This document shows, piece after piece, positions 22,780 to 39,695 of a stretch of DNA of 64,000 nt (its first letter is position 1; every line of letters begins with the position of its first letter). A program made the position numbers and the translations under genes. The notes below the pieces were generated by a model. The model did no database searches. It saw only the letters and a program-made list of their open reading frames with translations, and was not told the origin of the DNA. The DNA is taken from contig JAFVXW010000011.1 of the NCBI GenBank assembly GCA_017500935.1, forward strand, positions 62,001-126,000, read 5' to 3'. The stretch is from Lachnospiraceae bacterium (GTDB lineage: Bacteria > Bacillota > Clostridia > Lachnospirales > Lachnospiraceae).

Positions 22780-24693
22780 ATGAAAAAAGACTACGCAAAA
22801 ACAACACATATGGATGCCTGGCTGCGCCATCCCGTTCTGGGCGATCCCTCCTTTGACAGCTTTGAGCGTCTGGGCGATACGGTTCATAAGTCCCAGCCCC
22901 CCTATGAATGGGCTGTAAACGGTTCTTTATTCTGCGATTTTGACGGCAGCTGGTATTACTATGCCGGTCTGTACGGCTACGGCTACCGCGGCAGCCTCCG
23001 CAGCCGTTTTAAAATCTACCGTTCCGCCGATAAGGGCATGAGCTGGGAAGATCTTGGATGGGGTTTTGAAGAAGGTTTTGTCTTTGACGGCCATGAAACT
23101 CCCGCCGACGGCTGCCCTGACGTGGTGCTTTACTGGGACGAAACCTACAAAAAGTATCTGCTGACCTATGACTGCAGCACCAATGATTTTACCTGGGAGA
23201 CGGCACATTCTCCCGAAGGACACAAAATAGACAGCGGTGCAGCCATCGCCTGGGCAGATTCTCCTGCAGGTCCTTTTACCCGTGTCCCGGAAATGTTTTT
23301 ATCAAACAGAACCCATCACGGCGTACTGGGCCGTTTCAGCCGTTTTTATGCCTCCTGTGTGGTTCCCCGCAAAAACGATTATGCCGCTTTTTGCCTGTGT
23401 GATTCCAACCAGCATTTTGCGTGGGGTCTGGCAGTTCTGACAGCTCCCACTCCGGAAGGCCCCTGGTCTGCACCTCATCTGGTATTAAGCTGTGACCGTC
23501 CCGAATATTATCCCTGCCCCGTGGAATTTTTCCCCGTGGAAGTACAGGGTGACAAGGTGCTGGCACACGCTACCTCCGTTGCCAAAAACCGCAACTATCA
23601 GGCAATTTTTACTGCTGATCTGGAAAGTGCGCATGACCCTGCAGCATGGACGCTGACCGACGACGGCAATGTATGGCATTCCCGCGACCATGAAGATGAA
23701 TATTTCGGTATCTGGGGACAGACCATCCACGGTTTTGTGGAGCAGGAAACCGGCCGCTATATCGTGATGTTCCCTTCCAAGGATGAAAATGATCACGGTA
23801 CTTTAAATCTGGCATGGCGTCCTTTTGACACGCCCCACACCGACGGTTTTACCCTGACCGGTCATGAAGGCTTTTCCGTATCTCCCCTGCTTGCCGCTTA
23901 CGACAATTTTGAACTCAACGCCGAATTTACCACCAAAGGCTGCGTGGATATCGCCTTTGACTACCGCGGCATTTTAGGCCCCGATGACAGCTGTGCGGAT
24001 TCTTCCCCCGCCATGACTGCCCTGACCAACTATACGGCTGTGCGCATCTGTGAAAATGAAGGCTGTATCGTTTCCGTAAGTCCCCAGGGCTATGCTGATC
24101 CCATGGCGGAAGCCCAGACAGCCGAATATATTACCCGCCTGCGCATCAAAAAATATGCAGGAAAGGTAAATATCCATATTAATGATGTTCTGCTCTGTGA
24201 AAATCAGGAAGTAAAATCCGGTGCACCCGCGCCGCTGGCACTGATCGTAATGCCCCGCAGCCGCATCGACTGCACCAGATTTGAGATCACAGGAACCCCT
24301 GAACCCTACATCCATCTCTGGAACGCTGTAGATGCCCTTTTAGGCGCCGGTCAGCTGATGCCCGATGAAGATGAGGTGGAAACAACCGATGCGATCGCAC
24401 CCGACCGCTGGCACCGTATTCCGGGCGGTTACATCGGAGAAGGCAACATCAATGCAAAGTGGAATCTTCGCGGCTCTGCCTTTTCCGTACAGCTCCAGAA
24501 AGGCCCCGGTTTCGGAAAAGCCGGCATCTGGGTGGACGGCATGCTCTATGGTTCCATTGATCTGGACGGTGATGGTCTTGCAGAATACCGTATCGAAAAT
24601 CTTACCTTCGGCCGCCGCGCCATCCATGTCCGTCCCCTAAACGGACGTATCGGCATCAGAGGATGCGTGGCCTTCGGACCTGCTGTCAGCTGA
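22780..24693 (+). CDS. Beta-propeller glycoside hydrolase-like protein
   Basis: 637 residues with no signal peptide. The first 350 or so residues look like a five-bladed propeller of the GH43/GH32/GH117 type: repeated 'W...DP.S'-like and 'YR S.D.g..W' strands (FKIYRSADKGMSWEDLG, AWADSPAGPFTRV), with acidic candidates in VNGSLFCDFDG, DGCPDVVLYWDE and CPVEFFPVE. The C-terminal 250 residues look like a beta-sandwich with a carbohydrate-binding character. The exact GH family is not recognised. First of four same-strand genes (with GH51, CE15-like and GH2), so it probably trims an arabinose- or galactose-bearing oligosaccharide. Confidence 0.6.
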   Translation: MKKDYAKTTHMDAWLRHPVLGDPSFDSFERLGDTVHKSQPPYEWAVNGSLFCDFDGSWYYYAGLYGYGYRGSLRSRFKIYRSADKGMSWEDLGWGFEEGFVFDGHETPADGCPDVVLYWDETYKKYLLTYDCSTNDFTWETAHSPEGHKIDSGAAIAWADSPAGPFTRVPEMFLSNRTHHGVLGRFSRFYASCVVPRKNDYAAFCLCDSNQHFAWGLAVLTAPTPEGPWSAPHLVLSCDRPEYYPCPVEFFPVEVQGDKVLAHATSVAKNRNYQAIFTADLESAHDPAAWTLTDDGNVWHSRDHEDEYFGIWGQTIHGFVEQETGRYIVMFPSKDENDHGTLNLAWRPFDTPHTDGFTLTGHEGFSVSPLLAAYDNFELNAEFTTKGCVDIAFDYRGILGPDDSCADSSPAMTALTNYTAVRICENEGCIVSVSPQGYADPMAEAQTAEYITRLRIKKYAGKVNIHINDVLLCENQEVKSGAPAPLALIVMPRSRIDCTRFEITGTPEPYIHLWNAVDALLGAGQLMPDEDEVETTDAIAPDRWHRIPGGYIGEGNINAKWNLRGSAFSVQLQKGPGFGKAGIWVDGMLYGSIDLDGDGLAEYRIENLTFGRRAIHVRPLNGRIGIRGCVAFGPAVS

Positions 24694-30491: not shown

Positions 30492-30526
30492 GAGGCAGTG
30501 ACCCGGATGAGTCACTGCCCCTTTTT
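30492..30526 (+). terminator. Terminator of the propeller/GH51/CE15/GH2 operon
   Basis: GGCAGTGAC (30494-30502) pairs with GTCACTGCC (30511-30519), followed by five Ts (30522-30526). Confidence 0.85.
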
Positions 30527-30553: not shown

Positions 30554-33142
30554 TTAATATCCCAGATTCTCATTTACAAACACCACTTCATATGCACATC
30601 CCTTGGGTGCCTCCCACAGCACATTCAGCGTGCGGCAGATTCGGTCGGGGCTCTGGCAGTTGTAACATTTATCTGCAAGAACTGCACAAGGTGTCTTTTT
30701 GTTCAGACGCTTTGCATTTAAAGGTGCTGCCACATTACGTGCATAACTGATGGCTGCATCCACATTTTCAGCAATCTTGTTCTTACCGATCACAAAGATG
30801 ACCTTCTTATGTCCATAGAGTGTTGCTGCCACTCTGTTGCCGGTATTGTCAATATTGACGATCTGACCGTCCATGGAAATACCGTTGACAGAGGAGAAAT
30901 AAATCTCTGCGCTTCTTGCTTCTGCCAGCACATCCGCGTTGGTCTTTCCTTCAGGAATGCGCCAGTGCCAGATCACCTCGTTCTTTTTGGAAAGCTTTTC
31001 ATACAATCCCAGCTGATCTAAAGTCACAGAACCGCCAAAAGCAACTTTTTTGCCTTCCAGGCTGCCTGCAAGATAAGCTGCCGCCTCTTCCTTTGTCTCA
31101 AAAGAGCTTACCTGATAGCCTTTGTTTTCCAGCGCCTGCTGTACTCTGCTATACGCCGGACGCACCTTTCCTTCCTTTAATACCACCGCGGTACGGGCGG
31201 GAAGATAGATTTCGATATAAGCCTGACCGTCGAACACTTTTGCCGGGTAATTAATATGCTGTACCTGATTCCAGCCGCCGTACTTTTCATCATCACTGGA
31301 CAGCTCCACGGTGTAATCCGCATCATTGGGAACAGGGATCAGTACATTGGTCAGGGAATTGTTGGGATGGAAGTTAAAGGCAAAAAGCAGACCTTTTCTG
31401 TAGAACGCGATCATCTTTTCGGGTTCTTTTAACAGGCTTAAATTTGCCATACGCTGACCAAACATGTTATTGTCCTGAGTCAGTTTTACCATATCGCGGT
31501 CGAAATCACCCAGCCACTGGTATTTGAGCAGACCGTTATTCTTTAAGCTCCACTGACGTCTGCAGTAATGGAAGCTCCAGTTGTTGCCTTCTCTGGGGAA
31601 ATCGATCCATTCGGGATGGCCGAATTCATTGCCCATAAAGTTCAGATAGCCTTCTCCGCCGCCTGCCAGGGTAAACAGACGGATCATCTTGTGCAGTGCG
31701 ATCGCACGGTCGATGACCTGATTATGGCAGTCTTTATTCATATCGGTATACATATTGGCATCAGCCAGACGGAACATCATGGTCTTATCGCCAACCAGTG
31801 CCTGATCATGGCTTTCCACATACGCGATGGTATTTTCACCGGGACGGCGCAGGCACATATCGCCCCACATCTTGCCGATTTCCCAGTGTTCATCGGATTT
31901 TTCCTTAACGGTACGGATCCACATATCCGGCAGACCCATGCCCAGACGATAGTCAAAACCGATACCGCCGTCTTCAATAGGAAGTCCCATACCGGGCATA
32001 CCGGACATATCTTCGGAAATGGTCACGGCTTTGGGGTTCACCTGACGGATCAGCTCATTGGCAAGCTGCAGATAGGTGATCGCTTCCAGATCGGTATTCA
32101 TGGAAAAATACTTGTTGTTGTCATTAAAATCTGTGCCAAGACCGTGGTCATGATACAGCATGGAGGTGACACCGTCAAAACGGAAACCGTCAAAATGGTA
32201 TTCTGTCATCCAGAATTTCAAGTTGGAAAGCAGGAAATGAATAACTTCGGTCTTACCGTAGTTAAAGCACTTGGTTCCCCATGCGGGATGATCGCCTTTA
32301 GGACCGTCATGGAAGAACTGATAAGTGGTACCGTCAAACTCATTGATGCCTTCCGCAGTATTTTTGACTGCATGGGAATGTACCACGTCAAGCAGTACGC
32401 GGATGCCCATTTCATGCGCTTTATTTACCAGATATTTTAAATCTTCGGGCTTGCCAAACCAGCTGGATGCCGCAAAGAAACTGGAAACCTGATAACCAAA
32501 GCTGCCATAGTAAGGATGCTCCATGATCGCCATCAGCTGAATAGTGTTGTAGCCGCCGTCTTTTACCACAGGAAGGACATTGTCTGCAAACTCACGGTAA
32601 CTGCCGACTTTTCCTTCTTCCTGGGACATACCCACATGCGCTTCATATATGTAAAGAGATTCAGAGCCTTCAAAGTTCTGGTCTGTCCATGCAAAAGGCT
32701 TGTTGGTGTCCACAACTTCACCGCACCATGCAACTGTCTTGGGATCCTGTACCACGCGGCGGATATAAAGCGGAATATGCTCTGTACGCTGCATATTGGC
32801 ATCCACAATGGTCTTGACCTTACTGCCTTCCCAGATCTCATCCGCCGAAAGCTTTAATTCCCAGCATCCGTTCTCTTTCTTTGTCAGAGGATGGCTGGTC
32901 TGATTCCAGTTATTGAAATCGCCGGTCAGATACAGCTGATGTGCCGCGGGAGCCCATTCACGGTATACCCAGCCGCCATCCGCACGGTGAATACCAAAAT
33001 AGTCATGTGCATTGGCAAACTCATTTAAGGTCTGTCCGTCTTTTAAAAGACGCTTCTTTGTCTCATGGTAACGGGACATACGCAGATCAATATCGCCTTT
33101 AAAAGACGCAAGCTGCGGATTCAGTTCTAAAATACGGTACAT
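30554..33142 (-). CDS. GH13_8-type glycogen branching enzyme fused to a C-terminal LUD domain
   Basis: 862 residues. Residues 1-662 are a eukaryote-type (GH13_8) 1,4-alpha-glucan branching enzyme: CBM48 region (WAPAAHQLYLTGDFNNWN), catalytic barrel with Asp323 (GFRFDGVTSM), Glu377 (TISEDMSGMPGMG) and Asp446 (YVESHDQALVGDKT), then LNFMGNEFGHPEWIDFPREG and a C-terminal beta domain ending about residue 661. Residues 663-862 are a LUD/DUF162 domain as in LutC-like proteins: AFGGSVTLDQLGLYEKL, INGxDG-type SMDGQIVNIDNTGNRVA, KKVIFVIGKNKI, and a Cys set (Cys819, 826, 829, 836) ending VFVNENLGY. The reading frame is continuous. ATG 33142 follows GGAGGG. The pairing of glycogen synthesis with a lactate-utilisation-type domain is unusual. 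Confidence 0.9.
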   Translation of the reverse strand: MYRILELNPQLASFKGDIDLRMSRYHETKKRLLKDGQTLNEFANAHDYFGIHRADGGWVYREWAPAAHQLYLTGDFNNWNQTSHPLTKKENGCWELKLSADEIWEGSKVKTIVDANMQRTEHIPLYIRRVVQDPKTVAWCGEVVDTNKPFAWTDQNFEGSESLYIYEAHVGMSQEEGKVGSYREFADNVLPVVKDGGYNTIQLMAIMEHPYYGSFGYQVSSFFAASSWFGKPEDLKYLVNKAHEMGIRVLLDVVHSHAVKNTAEGINEFDGTTYQFFHDGPKGDHPAWGTKCFNYGKTEVIHFLLSNLKFWMTEYHFDGFRFDGVTSMLYHDHGLGTDFNDNNKYFSMNTDLEAITYLQLANELIRQVNPKAVTISEDMSGMPGMGLPIEDGGIGFDYRLGMGLPDMWIRTVKEKSDEHWEIGKMWGDMCLRRPGENTIAYVESHDQALVGDKTMMFRLADANMYTDMNKDCHNQVIDRAIALHKMIRLFTLAGGGEGYLNFMGNEFGHPEWIDFPREGNNWSFHYCRRQWSLKNNGLLKYQWLGDFDRDMVKLTQDNNMFGQRMANLSLLKEPEKMIAFYRKGLLFAFNFHPNNSLTNVLIPVPNDADYTVELSSDDEKYGGWNQVQHINYPAKVFDGQAYIEIYLPARTAVVLKEGKVRPAYSRVQQALENKGYQVSSFETKEEAAAYLAGSLEGKKVAFGGSVTLDQLGLYEKLSKKNEVIWHWRIPEGKTNADVLAEARSAEIYFSSVNGISMDGQIVNIDNTGNRVAATLYGHKKVIFVIGKNKIAENVDAAISYARNVAAPLNAKRLNKKTPCAVLADKCYNCQSPDRICRTLNVLWEAPKGCAYEVVFVNENLGY

Positions 33143-33278
33143 CACAATTCCCTCCTGGCTAAAATCCTTCGATAACATGTATGTTTGTATTTTCAAAAAC
33201 GAAACAAAGTTCTGAATAAAATATAACATACAACCACTGTTTTGAAAAGTATTTCTAAACGCAGAAAAGTTCCGCGTC

Positions 33279-33348: not shown

Positions 33349-36300
33349 TCATTCTGCTTTCAGCAGTGCATACAGCGCATATGCATCCAGATTCTGGGGA
33401 TTTTTTTCCATACAGTGTTCCAGCTGCCACAGCGCTTCCTGTTTATTGCCAAGCGCTTCGTTTGCCAAAGCTTTCAGCCACAGACTTGCTGCTTCTCTCT
33501 CCTGTTTTGCAGGTTCGATAAAGCTCTGATAAAATGCGGTGATCGCATACCAGCCGGGATCTGTAACCTTGGCTGCTTTTTCTGCACGGTCCATAAATTC
33601 GCACAGGATTTTTTCTGCTTCCTTACGCATGCCTCTGTGCATCAGAATCTTTGCCTGATAAACATCCAGTGCCGGTAAAGATGCATCAGGACGTACACGG
33701 GACAGGATATCGTCAAACAGTTCGTCTGCCATCTTCTGCTCGCCCAGCTGTTCTAAGCAGATTGCTTTTCCGTACTCAAAAGGAACCAGCGCCACCTTCT
33801 GCCACAGGCCTGCGCCAAGGCTTGCAGGAAGTTCCATACCCTTATTAAACCAATCCAGTGCCTGTTCATAGCGTCCTGCTGCCAGTGCCTGATTGCCCAG
33901 CGCACAATTGGAGAACAGATACTGCGCGGTCACATAGCCTTCCGCACCTTCACGGGGCACAAATTCACGGGAGAGAAGCTTCTCCAGCGCCTTTTCATAC
34001 TCACCGGCCTGATTGAAGGCTTCCACATACTCAAGCCATACGTCATTGGTGCATACATCCATATGCTCCTCAACCATGGCAATACGTTCCTTAGGAGTGC
34101 AGTGCAGTCTGGTCATCACATAAACGGTTTCCCAGAGCAGCTTTTCATTGTCTTTTTTGATCGCAATGGCTTTTTTCATCCAGTCTAAAGCTTCCTGTCT
34201 GCGTCCCAGATGGGTATAAAGCGCTGCTGCGTGGTTACGGCAGGAAATCCAGTCTTCAGGATCATTTTTGATGGCCTGACACCAGAGCATATCTGCTTTT
34301 TCATAATGGGTATGTCCGTAATACCAGCATCCAAGCAGTCCTGCTGCCGCTGCGTCCTCAGGCATTTTTTCCAGATGTGCATGGAGTGCGCGGCGTTCCA
34401 GCTCGCGGAGAGGATATGCGATTCCCACAGGCAGATCTTTAATCTGTGCTGTCGTGCCTCCCAGATACTCACATACGATCGCGGTCATACGGGTGGGATT
34501 TTCCAGCTTTGCAAGAATATCACAGGCGGTTTTAGTCTGATCAAGTTCACAGAGATCATTTGCCAGATCCAGGGCAGTCTGTGCAGGATCAGTCAGCCAT
34601 ACAGCCCCTTCATCACAGCCCATCAGGCAGCGTCCGGTCACGAACAGAGGATCCAGGGCTTTCATTCGTGCAAGGCAGTTTTCTGCTTCCTGTGTACGCT
34701 GCAGTCTGCTAAACGCTACTGCGCCTGCCGCCAATGCCATCAGGTTCTCGTCACCGGCTTTCTTTGCGTAGGATGCTGCTTTTACAGGATCATTCATACG
34801 CAGGGACAGCATTGCCATACGGGTAAAGGCACGTTGTGCACAGTCACCCTGCCAGCAGGCTCTTGCATACCAGTCCATCGCCTCGCTGTCTTTGTCCAGT
34901 GTTTCACAGATCAGACCCAGTGTATACGGAATATCTCCGCTCTCAGGGCGGAAATTCCAGCGGGTAACTGCCTTCCAGGCACGCATTCCAAGGTCATACG
35001 CTTCTTCATAGTATCCCTTCATGAATCTTGCACGTGCAAGGGCATGCAACAGGCGGTAGTCATTGGGGAATCTCCTGACACCGGCTTCAAAATAGGTTTC
35101 CGGTAAAATAAGGGGATCTCTGTACTGATCCGCATGTACGCCGGTCAGATAGAAATCATCCGCTGTTTCCAGTTGTTCGATCGGAGGCATACCGGGCAGG
35201 ATCGGAGGAAGCTCGGTTTCGCCTTCCTCCTTCTTTTCATAGGAAAGAATGCTCAGTCCGTCTTCGATCAGCTCGACGGTAATGATCTCTTCCTTCCAGG
35301 TCAGAGGCCAGATATCACCGGGATTAAGATCCAGAGCCGCTGCAACCTGACCGTTGATCTTTAAGATAACACCGGAGAACTTGCGGGTACTCTGCAGATT
35401 CAGCTCACATCCGTCCACATTGACTGCTGCATGGTAGGAGGCCATGGTAGGAATACCCATATCACCAATGGGATACCAGCTCTGGATAAATTCCTTGGTT
35501 TCATAGGGCTGGATCCAGGTAAAGTCAGGCTGGTCAGTGGTATAGCTGCCTGCCATCAGCTCTGCATACATGCCGTCTTCGTCGGTAAGTGCCTTTTCCC
35601 ATGCATTTTCCATGGTGCCATAGCCCCAAGTAAACATCTTCTTGCCCTGAGAGATGCGGCTGTCAGAGACATGCACTACGCCGCAGTTTTTGCCTTCGTC
35701 ATAGCCGCCGAAGAAATCATAATGGGAAGCAGCTGCAAAATAAGAGGTTGCCGCTCTGGAATTTTTATGATAGCTGATATCTCTGGGATCGCGCATCCGG
35801 ATACCTGCATAATCTTCGCTCTGGGCAATGGGGAAATTGGTGTTGTGTCTTCTGTAATGGTTCTGTACATAATGTACATCCGGCGGGAAAAACAGTCTGT
35901 ACTGCTCATTAACCGGAACAGCGGCATTCTCCCACCACATAAAAGGACGGCGCACAGCAGTGCGGTTATAAAGGCGCATCTTCGTATCAAACACAGCTGC
36001 ATCGGGGGCCAGACTGATACCTACCATGCCTCTGGTACGGTAAAGGGGATCATTTTCTCCCAGCCATACTGTAACAGTGCCGTCTTCTTCTTCCTCAATC
36101 GTGTAATCGGTGGGCATAAAAGTGGAAGGTCTGTGATGGCAGGGCCAGTTAAATTCCAGACCGCCGGAGATCCATTCACCCATGTAACCGATCAGCGCGG
36201 GTTTGATGACATGCTGTTTGTATAAAAAGTCATAGCCGGTTCTCTTATCCAGTGCAGAATACACTCTGCCGCCCAGTTCAGGCAGAATTTCCAGACGCAG

Positions 36301-36507
36301 ATACTCATTCTCCAGGCTGATGCATACATATTCCTTATCTTCTCTGTGCACTCTGTCAACATCGTTTACAATGCGGCAGGGATAGGGATTGCCTGTTGTG
36401 CCCTGATGATTTCTGTTTTCGTTAAACATCGGCATTTCTTCTGCTTCCACACTGCGCCAGGTAGGTATGGTAAGCTTAAATTCCGTCACGATCGTTTTTT
36501 TGCTCAT
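33349..36507 (-). CDS. DUF5107 domain protein with C-terminal TPR repeats
   Basis: 1052 residues. The first 330 or so form a DUF5107 domain, a beta-supersandwich of the galactose mutarotase-like kind: LRLEILPELGGRVYSALDKR is the N-terminal signature, with WISGGLEFNWPCHHRPSTF and FMWWENAAVPVN. From about residue 400 on, the protein is a long series of TPR-type helical hairpins (for example EEAYDLGMRAWKAV, EALDWMKKAIAI, YEQALDWFNKGMEL). No signal peptide or membrane segment, so cytoplasmic. Known roles of DUF5107 are unclear; a sugar-binding or mutarotase/lyase-like role is inferred from the fold. Divergent from LacI, sharing its operator region. The ATG follows AAGGAG. Confidence 0.85.
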   Translation of the reverse strand: MSKKTIVTEFKLTIPTWRSVEAEEMPMFNENRNHQGTTGNPYPCRIVNDVDRVHREDKEYVCISLENEYLRLEILPELGGRVYSALDKRTGYDFLYKQHVIKPALIGYMGEWISGGLEFNWPCHHRPSTFMPTDYTIEEEEDGTVTVWLGENDPLYRTRGMVGISLAPDAAVFDTKMRLYNRTAVRRPFMWWENAAVPVNEQYRLFFPPDVHYVQNHYRRHNTNFPIAQSEDYAGIRMRDPRDISYHKNSRAATSYFAAASHYDFFGGYDEGKNCGVVHVSDSRISQGKKMFTWGYGTMENAWEKALTDEDGMYAELMAGSYTTDQPDFTWIQPYETKEFIQSWYPIGDMGIPTMASYHAAVNVDGCELNLQSTRKFSGVILKINGQVAAALDLNPGDIWPLTWKEEIITVELIEDGLSILSYEKKEEGETELPPILPGMPPIEQLETADDFYLTGVHADQYRDPLILPETYFEAGVRRFPNDYRLLHALARARFMKGYYEEAYDLGMRAWKAVTRWNFRPESGDIPYTLGLICETLDKDSEAMDWYARACWQGDCAQRAFTRMAMLSLRMNDPVKAASYAKKAGDENLMALAAGAVAFSRLQRTQEAENCLARMKALDPLFVTGRCLMGCDEGAVWLTDPAQTALDLANDLCELDQTKTACDILAKLENPTRMTAIVCEYLGGTTAQIKDLPVGIAYPLRELERRALHAHLEKMPEDAAAAGLLGCWYYGHTHYEKADMLWCQAIKNDPEDWISCRNHAAALYTHLGRRQEALDWMKKAIAIKKDNEKLLWETVYVMTRLHCTPKERIAMVEEHMDVCTNDVWLEYVEAFNQAGEYEKALEKLLSREFVPREGAEGYVTAQYLFSNCALGNQALAAGRYEQALDWFNKGMELPASLGAGLWQKVALVPFEYGKAICLEQLGEQKMADELFDDILSRVRPDASLPALDVYQAKILMHRGMRKEAEKILCEFMDRAEKAAKVTDPGWYAITAFYQSFIEPAKQEREAASLWLKALANEALGNKQEALWQLEHCMEKNPQNLDAYALYALLKAE

Positions 36508-37766: not shown

Positions 37767-39695
37767 ATGATCCACGAACTTGCTTTTGACATTCTTTTTG
37801 TTACAGACCAAAACCAGGAAATCCGCCTTGACAACTGGACCAAAAACAGCACCCTGGGCTACACTTACTATGAAGCAGCGCTGGATACACTTCATTTTTC
37901 CATTCTTGCGCACAAGGATCACACCTGGTATTTAAAAGTTCATAATACCGGAAAAACACCGGTAACCGGCTTTGCCGGCATCCGTTTTCCCTGGCGTTAC
38001 GACTCTGACTGCTTCACCCTGATTCCCGGCATTTATTACGACGGTAACTATCAGCAGCAGCTTGCCCATATCCCTCACATTCATCTGCCCGAAACTCCGG
38101 TATTTGCAGCCTCCTTATCCGCCGCCACCTATCCGACGGTTCTTGTAAAAGACGGCAGCCAAGGCTGGCACTATGAAATCTCTCCCACCTCTTTGGCGGG
38201 CTGGAACGGCGTCACTTTAGATGCAGCCAACAGCACCATGACCATTTATGCACCTGCAAAAGAAGAGGATTATTATACCCACCAGGGCACTTCCGGCTTC
38301 GACCGGGCACCGCATGCCTGGCAGCCAAATGAGACGGTCTGCATCCGCTTCTCCAAAACAGCATTTGCCTGCGAAACAGTAAGTGATCTTCTGGATTACC
38401 ACTGGGACAAAGCAATCCGTTCCGAACGCTACCCGGCGGCAAATACCCCGAAAATATCCGAAGAGCAGGGGGCCGCTCTTGTCCGTGACTGGTTTTATCG
38501 CAAACACTGTGTGTATACCGATAAAAAGGAACCGCTGATCTTAAATGCCTTTGTGGATATTGAAAATGACTGGCCGCATGCCGGTATGGCGGAATGGAAT
38601 ATCATGATCGGCTGGTGCTGCGGTGCCATGGCTGCACTTCCGCTGTTGAAATACGGCGGTCAATACCGTGATTTTGCCGTAACTTTTCTGGATTTTGTCT
38701 CTTTACACGGTAACACAAAAAGCGGGGTAAAAGCCCCCATCTATGACGGCAGATCCTGGATGACCAAAGAACATCCGGAATATCACTTCCGTTATCAGCA
38801 CTGCCGTTTTTACAGTGATCATCTTTACTATCTGGGAAGAGCGATCCGCCATGAAAAAGAAAACGGACATATACATCCTTTATGGGAAGAAGATTTTGCC
38901 GGCGGCATTGCCATCTTAAAAGACATCTGGATGCGCGAACAGGATTTTGGTCTGTACTGGAACACAGATGAAGAAAAAGTAACACTGCTTAGCCGCGGCA
39001 CCGCCGCAGGTGCCTTTTTTTTACTGGCACTGGCCGAAGGCTGCAGGCATTTCCCGCAGGATCAGAAACTGGCCGACTGTTTTAGGCAGGCATGTGCATC
39101 TTATCATGAAAAATATGTGCTGACCGGGCGCAGCGGCGGCGGTCCCGTCGATATTCTGGAAGCTGACGATTCCGAAAGTATTGCAGCTCTCACCGATGCG
39201 CTGGTGCAGCAGCATCAGTTATTCGGCGGCAGTGATACCCTGCAGATGGCTCTGAATGCCGCAAAACTCTTTGCCACCTGGACAGTCAATTATCAGCCTG
39301 CGTTCCCCGGCGGTTCCATGCTGGAAGGCATCAACGTCTGCGGCGGCGTACTGGCAAATGTACAGAACCGTCACGTAGGTCCCGGCATTTGTACCAATTC
39401 CGCCCGTTTTGTCTATGATCTGGGACAGATCACCGGTGATCAGCGCTGGACAGATTTATACTGGCGTATTAAAGCAGCTGCCATCAACTGCCTGTCATCC
39501 TATGACGGAGAATTTTTTGGCATCAGATTTGATCAGATTTTTACCCAGGGCATGATCAGTGAGCAGATCAACATGACCAATTGTTTAAATCCTGCCGGTG
39601 AAACCTGGCGCGTCAGCACCAGCTGGCCTTCCTGTTCCATCCTGCTTGGCTGGTATGATACCCCCAAAAACAGCAAAGACGTGCTGAACTTATAA
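37767..39695 (+). CDS. Uncharacterised (alpha/alpha)6-barrel glycosidase-like protein
   Basis: 642 residues, no signal peptide. Residues 1 to about 210 are rich in beta-strands; from about 240 the protein looks like an alpha-hairpin barrel, with helical repeats and aromatic/acidic patches (NAFVDIENDWPHAGMAEW, HFRYQHCRFYSDHLYYLG, LEADDSESIAALTDALVQQH, EGINVCGGVLANVQNRHVGP). These resemble the architecture of GH families 88/105/127, but no family signature was recognised and the catalytic residues cannot be assigned. Operon position between LacI and GH95 (gaps 12 and 19 bp) supports action on the same glycan. The ATG follows AAAGGAG. Confidence 0.6.
   Translation: MIHELAFDILFVTDQNQEIRLDNWTKNSTLGYTYYEAALDTLHFSILAHKDHTWYLKVHNTGKTPVTGFAGIRFPWRYDSDCFTLIPGIYYDGNYQQQLAHIPHIHLPETPVFAASLSAATYPTVLVKDGSQGWHYEISPTSLAGWNGVTLDAANSTMTIYAPAKEEDYYTHQGTSGFDRAPHAWQPNETVCIRFSKTAFACETVSDLLDYHWDKAIRSERYPAANTPKISEEQGAALVRDWFYRKHCVYTDKKEPLILNAFVDIENDWPHAGMAEWNIMIGWCCGAMAALPLLKYGGQYRDFAVTFLDFVSLHGNTKSGVKAPIYDGRSWMTKEHPEYHFRYQHCRFYSDHLYYLGRAIRHEKENGHIHPLWEEDFAGGIAILKDIWMREQDFGLYWNTDEEKVTLLSRGTAAGAFFLLALAEGCRHFPQDQKLADCFRQACASYHEKYVLTGRSGGGPVDILEADDSESIAALTDALVQQHQLFGGSDTLQMALNAAKLFATWTVNYQPAFPGGSMLEGINVCGGVLANVQNRHVGPGICTNSARFVYDLGQITGDQRWTDLYWRIKAAAINCLSSYDGEFFGIRFDQIFTQGMISEQINMTNCLNPAGETWRVSTSWPSCSILLGWYDTPKNSKDVLNL

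Follow-up and report, generated by a model that had tools for sequence, protein, structure and literature searches.

The window analysed here, a stretch of 64,000 nucleotides from a Lachnospiraceae draft genome (assembly GCA_017500935.1, contig JAFVXW010000011.1, positions 62,001 to 126,000), carries on its reverse strand a gene in which a glycogen branching enzyme is fused to a LUD domain (Table 1). Its neighbours are a DUF5107-TPR gene on one side and, on the other, a beta-galactosidase gene convergent with it. It encodes 862 residues in a single frame, open from the ATG at 33142 to the stop codon at 30554-30556, and the uninterrupted frame claimed by the first-pass annotation of this DNA was thus confirmed. 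The mechanical start of the open reading frame is 33229, 29 codons further upstream; the ATG at 33142 is the likelier start, since close relatives begin there and a ribosome-binding site is placed there.

The N-terminal half contains the CBM48 domain, an alpha-amylase Pfam match (residues 191-262 being the better of two stretches) and the alpha-amylase C-terminal beta domain. Among solved structures, those closest to residues 1-656 belong to human GBE1 and other branching enzymes of eukaryotic type (best E 6.9e-198, 4bzy), with the best GlgB-type structure far behind (E 5.7e-58). Human GBE1 (4bzy/5clt) and rice BEI (3amk) have, like the fused protein, CBM48, barrel and all-beta C domain in identical order, but their matches stop by query residue 656 and they are therefore without LUD. 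The named relatives, taken as the best 80 of 584, are branching enzymes of Oscillospiraceae and other gut Clostridia (L032 and 79 others); 79 have complete frames, while L060 leaves its contig at 712 aa. Their identity to the fused protein is 66.7-81.1%, up to residues 1-662, and unlike it they end 2 to 122 residues past the equivalent of residue 656, with no LUD match. All 232 columns invariant in these 80 enzymes are kept in the fused protein. Among them are D323, E377 and D446, which by homology we take to be the GH13 catalytic nucleophile, the acid/base and the third catalytic acid, respectively. Judged from its sequence, this half is a complete eukaryotic-type (GH13_8-like) branching enzyme, GH13_8 being presumably its CAZy assignment. 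Pfam, the structure matches and the conservation in 80 of 80 relatives agree here with the earlier identification of a complete GH13_8 enzyme with these three residues.

The remaining 200 residues match Pfam LUD (PF02589) over residues 666-841 (E 7e-35, 120.9 bits against a cut-off of 22.6). The fused LUD keeps 19 of the 20 positions invariant in 23 LUD proteins, four cysteines included, the exception being an Arg replaced by Tyr, and its C-terminal end is NENLGY. A LUD domain with a cysteine set ending in NENLGY had been proposed from the letters alone, and both the Pfam match and the four cysteines, present in all 24 aligned rows, bear this out. Fold search assigned the LutC/LutB fold to this half; PDB sequence searches with the LUD half and with a LUD profile gave no real match, and LutC (2g40) and LutB (9a6l) are 15-18% identical to it. 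Free-standing clostridial LUD proteins of about 200 aa match it over their full length, with up to 58% identity, the four cysteines and the identical ending, but they are separate genes with their own start. Several plasmid-borne free LUD proteins carry the annotation "lactate utilization protein". In the host's family, 181 of 299 genomes, counting the window's own, gave LUD matches. The branch of the window LUD in the tree is long (0.55 changes per site), and its neighbours there, not strongly supported, are free LUDs from the host's family and from other families in the class. The LUD found in 5 of 12 congeners belongs to a different subgroup, 32-33% identical to the window LUD.

The first LUD helix begins at residue 663 with no linker before it, in line with the junction near residue 662 noted earlier. 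Past the equivalent of residue 656, the tails of the 80 relatives have a median length of 24 residues, and in 48 of them (from the set L032-L111) the tail is at least 15 residues long, with Lys and Arg averaging 30% of these tails. On the other side, the start Met of LUD proteins immediately precedes the equivalent of A663 in 9 of 23 rows and stands 2 to 14 residues ahead of it in most others (starts were read by a simple frame finder, and three of the 23 rows were cut elsewhere by the analyst). Since both the tails and the Met positions fit the junction, the gene consists of a whole enzyme joined to a whole LUD protein, with the variable tail replaced. The completeness of the parts, the conserved residues kept, the exact linkerless join and the single frame show, as far as the sequence goes, an arrangement far beyond chance. 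The structure of the whole protein was predicted from alignment A2 (mean predicted local distance difference test score 64.7), the mixed alignments A1 and A4, in which LUD rows were misplaced, being left out. As a separate observation, many of the long tails of the gut Clostridia enzymes are of low complexity and rich in Lys, Arg, Glu, Ala, Pro and Thr.

Regarding distribution, no LUD follows the enzyme in the best 80 named relatives, of whose loci 60 offer at least 2 kb of downstream DNA. In the host's order the enzyme was found in 20 of 392 genomes at E<=1e-70, the window's genome included, and in the 19 others the match stops at residue 625-688; in the class it was found in 24 of 391 genomes at E<=1e-100, where the 23 others end at 601-691. 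Some of these matches are partial (G569 105-625, G668 to 601, G701 to 623, G699 and G725 without start), and the two rows that reach past residue 668 contain stop codons. A second fused genome was not found among the 80 named loci, 391 other genomes of the order, 390 other genomes of the class, and the plasmid and phage collections; neither the LUD half nor the exact junction had a match in viral contigs. One plasmid place covers 80% of the query, to residue 693, but a gene of 240 bases is annotated there apart from that of an amylase-family protein. The LUD matches of this plasmid record and of Acetoanaerobium noterae are distant from the enzyme. The unusual architecture pointed out by the first-pass annotation has therefore no other case among the sampled genomes, and our search of the PMC literature found no paper pairing a branching enzyme with a LUD domain. 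With no second copy in the sampled relatives, the fusion is best regarded as lineage-specific. The enzyme was also not seen in 12 congeners, where matches were GlgB- or amylase-like with identities of 40% or less, and in the tree a branch of 0.19 leads to the window enzyme alone, inside a large Oscillospiraceae/Clostridia group. Given this absence and tree position, horizontal acquisition of the enzyme half is likely.

Other LUD genes were also considered for their partners, in 28 neighbourhoods (20 + 8 loci) of free or HAD-fused LUD genes. In 4 of the 28 (L158, L160, L162 and L165, all of the host's family) a glycogen phosphorylase gene precedes LUD by 1.7 to 4.2 kb, both being on one strand; the phosphorylase is a PF00343 protein, with TIGR02093 over its cut-off in the three scanned. 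These four loci share a conserved block of glycogen phosphorylase, SpoIID-like, M23-peptidase-like, LUD and CBS-domain genes; in three of them isoleucyl-tRNA synthetase lies upstream. A CBS gene stands beside LUD also in L159 and L166. Across the 20 loci the most widely shared families are M23-peptidase-like (6/20), CBS-domain (6/20), an unannotated family (4) and glycogen phosphorylase (4), followed by isoleucyl-tRNA synthetase and SpoIID-like proteins (3 each). Judged by these neighbourhoods, a tie between LUD and glycogen metabolism is possible. Two further fusions were seen in which LUD is, as in the fused enzyme, the complete C-terminal module of a larger protein. One is a DUF4116-LUD protein of 747 residues from one genome (L194:4194-6437, G102), with DUF4116 repeats followed by LUD. 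The other is a HAD phosphatase-LUD protein of 406 residues (L235:5105-6325, G757; relatives L238-L249), whose HAD part is nearest to phosphoglycolate phosphatase models, below their cut-offs. Within one family, 39 of 87 genomes match this protein from query residue 1-5 through to 406; in four others HAD and LUD lie side by side as separate matches (G1055, G1058, G1065 and G1066, the phosphatase being matched in part in G1065). The partners differ, and HAD-LUD is spread through a family whereas the enzyme-LUD fusion was found once. The most conserved physical partner of LUD seen here is the phosphatase; no paper pairing phosphoglycolate phosphatase with a LUD domain was found in the PMC literature.

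Whether glgA and glgC lie elsewhere in the host had been raised by the first-pass annotation, and they do. On other contigs there is a single match of glycogen-synthase type, a glgC that scores over its cut-off and has a glgC-like neighbour, and also a branching enzyme of GlgB type. Glycogen synthesis therefore seems to be in place, with the fused enzyme as an extra branching enzyme. A glycogen operon around the enzyme was considered and rejected, as a glgA match occurs in 1 of the 80 relatives' loci, L092, the source of the query itself.

We consider it probable that this is a genuine lineage-specific, end-to-end fusion, in which an acquired gut-type enzyme was joined in frame to a complete LUD gene, leaving the enzyme active and the LUD intact. 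Horizontal transfer probably brought into the host genome a eukaryotic-type branching enzyme such as gut Oscillospiraceae commonly have, and a complete free-standing clostridial LUD gene would then have replaced its short variable tail. As a member of its family, the fused protein would branch alpha-1,4-glucan as its relatives do. The LUD half probably folds independently as in LutC, keeping the cysteine cluster and the ligand pocket. LutC appears dimeric, with a conserved cavity near the interface, and LUD/LutC has a structure and a function that is proposed only (PMC3924224). By analogy, the LUD half probably pairs two enzyme molecules. It would also give the protein another function, distinct from branching, in catalysis or in binding small molecules, and a small metabolite may be its ligand; coupling of branching and LUD activities is possible. 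A number of points weigh against this interpretation. No LUD match was found in the available DNA beside the enzyme at 80 plus 27 loci, and with no second genome carrying the fusion there is no conservation evidence for selection of the fused form. No strongly supported small set surrounds the window enzyme in the tree, the congeners are 58-99% complete, some being incomplete, and host-like DNA, described below, does not by itself show transfer. The catalytic barrel was modelled at low confidence, with only four enzyme rows aligned, and the host has its GlgB-type enzyme as well. Moreover, neither a branching enzyme nor glgA occurs in the 28 LUD neighbourhoods, and the proximity of phosphorylase and LUD is not specific, because the block also holds isoleucyl-tRNA synthetase and sporulation-type genes. 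Finally, contamination of the assembly is given as 5.67%.

This last figure also speaks for an assembly artefact, in which two genomes, or two places of one, were misjoined at about 31157, as do the lack of a second copy of the fusion and the different affinities of the halves, the enzyme being nearest to metagenome-assembled genomes of Oscillospiraceae and other Clostridia and the LUD to genomes of the host's own family and class. The DNA itself argues otherwise. In a chimeric contig, Oscillospiraceae-like DNA would be expected on one side of the junction and host DNA on the other. Tetranucleotide signatures were computed for 15 kb on each side of residue 662 and compared with analyst-chosen stretches of the own genome (14, four of them on the window's contig) and with relatives' loci (the 37 of 80 exceeding 13 kb). 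Against ten stretches on the host's other contigs, the mean r was 0.74 for the LUD side and 0.75 for the enzyme side, where own-own pairs average 0.73 (0.51-0.85) and the two sides give 0.68 against each other. Six congener stretches gave r 0.50 and 0.51 with the junction sides, and the 37 relatives' loci averaged 0.46 and 0.38 with the LUD and enzyme sides (maximum 0.62 and 0.59). Since both sides carry the host's signature, a chimeric contig is disfavoured. GC content and codon use of both halves are near those of the window's genes, the join is in frame at both domain ends, and the junction has only short matches among 16 own-genome stretches (the longest 33 bases at 88%). The LUD is the single one found in the genome, and the contig is 280 kb long. 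DNA signature, codon use and a junction that is in frame thus led us to reject a chimeric contig, and an artefact is very improbable. Of the one-off or assembly error that separate parts in relatives had been taken to imply, the one-off stands in everything sampled, while the assembly error is disfavoured by the same three lines of evidence.

If the fusion is genuine, it may still be a neutral or recent accident, in which two working genes were fused with no functional link and the LUD half is tolerated. It was not found in any other sampled genome, and the tails of at least 15 residues at the same point in many relatives mean that the enzyme end tolerates additions. However, LUD has kept nearly all its invariant positions along its long branch, though this branch may largely predate the fusion, and an accident is a serious alternative that we hold with some doubt. 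A regulated enzyme, in which a sugar phosphate or organic acid bound by the LUD half, as by other proteins of the fold superfamily, switches or positions branching, seems rather unlikely. The Pfam LUD match and the LutC fold would also suit a lactate-linked enzyme, in which the LUD half would take the part of LutC in oxidising lactate and link lactate with glycogen. A LutABC operon is described in which LutB and LutC are encoded together with LutA (PMC3924224), both being LUD proteins. The host draft genome (95% complete), by contrast, gave no LUD besides the fused one, hence no LutB or LutC, so a LutABC role is unsupported and a role in lactate utilisation was rejected. In addition, the closest free LUD genes adjoin histidine biosynthesis, methyltransferase, PAS, GNAT and YjbR genes, which are unrelated to lactate, and the lactate link is scarcely credible. 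As these explanations partly overlap with a genuine end-to-end fusion, the confidences placed in them do not sum to one.

A broader proposal, which we regard as unlikely, is that clostridial LUD is a mobile ligand-binding module, possibly for a metal or Fe-S cluster, attached independently to branching enzyme, HAD phosphatase and DUF4116 protein, with some free forms near glycogen phosphorylase, and that glycogen branching here responds to a metabolite, phosphorylated or redox, through a sensing domain built into the enzyme. Fusions found in nature point directly to the partners of LUD/LutC, the HAD phosphatase fusion being a strong clue to LUD function. The enzyme-LUD and, above all, the family-wide HAD-LUD fusions also provide concrete proteins for testing LUD activity. 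If the LUD half controls branching, this would represent an unexpected regulation of storage polysaccharide structure in gut bacteria.

Table 1. Features of the fused gene and its flanks (positions in the window).
Feature	Position	Strand	Basis
Fused gene, branching enzyme plus LUD domain	30554..33142	-	862 aa, ATG start; frame and Pfam
CBM48 domain, residues 49-117	32792..32998	-	Pfam
D323	32174..32176	-	D in 80/80 relatives
E377	32012..32014	-	E in 80/80 relatives
D446	31805..31807	-	D in 80/80 relatives
Alpha-amylase C-terminal beta domain, residues 574-656	31175..31423	-	Pfam
Junction EGKVRPA, residues 657-663; enzyme end runs directly into first LUD helix (663-673), no linker	31154..31174	-	Alignment and model
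LUD domain, residues 663-862, as long as free-standing clostridial LUD protein	30557..31156	-	Pfam, alignment, fold search
Cys cluster C819, C826, C829, C836	30635..30688	-	Invariant in 24/24 aligned LUD rows
Ribosome-binding site AGGAGGG, 7 nt before ATG	33150..33156	-	Read in sequence
Possible sigma-70-type promoter TTTTCA-17-TATATT, TG before second hexamer; weak	33220..33248	-	Pattern scan
Hairpin with T-run, possible terminator, between convergent fused and beta-galactosidase genes	30494..30519	.	Hairpin scan

The promoter is a weak candidate, with 7 such sites observed in the region against 4.4 expected, and for hairpins with a T-run the respective numbers are 4 and 2.4. The upstream neighbour, a DUF5107 protein with TPR repeats (33349-36507), lies 206 bases from the fused gene on the same strand. 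Two further proteins of the window showed no domain match: one of 642 residues (37767-39695), between a LacI regulator and a GH95-type enzyme, had none in Pfam or NCBIfam at 0.01, and one of 637 aa (22780-24693) had none in Pfam at 1e-5. The surroundings of the fused gene are rich in plant-polysaccharide enzymes, including GH2, GH31, GH95, rhamnosidase-like and arabinofuranosidase-like proteins.
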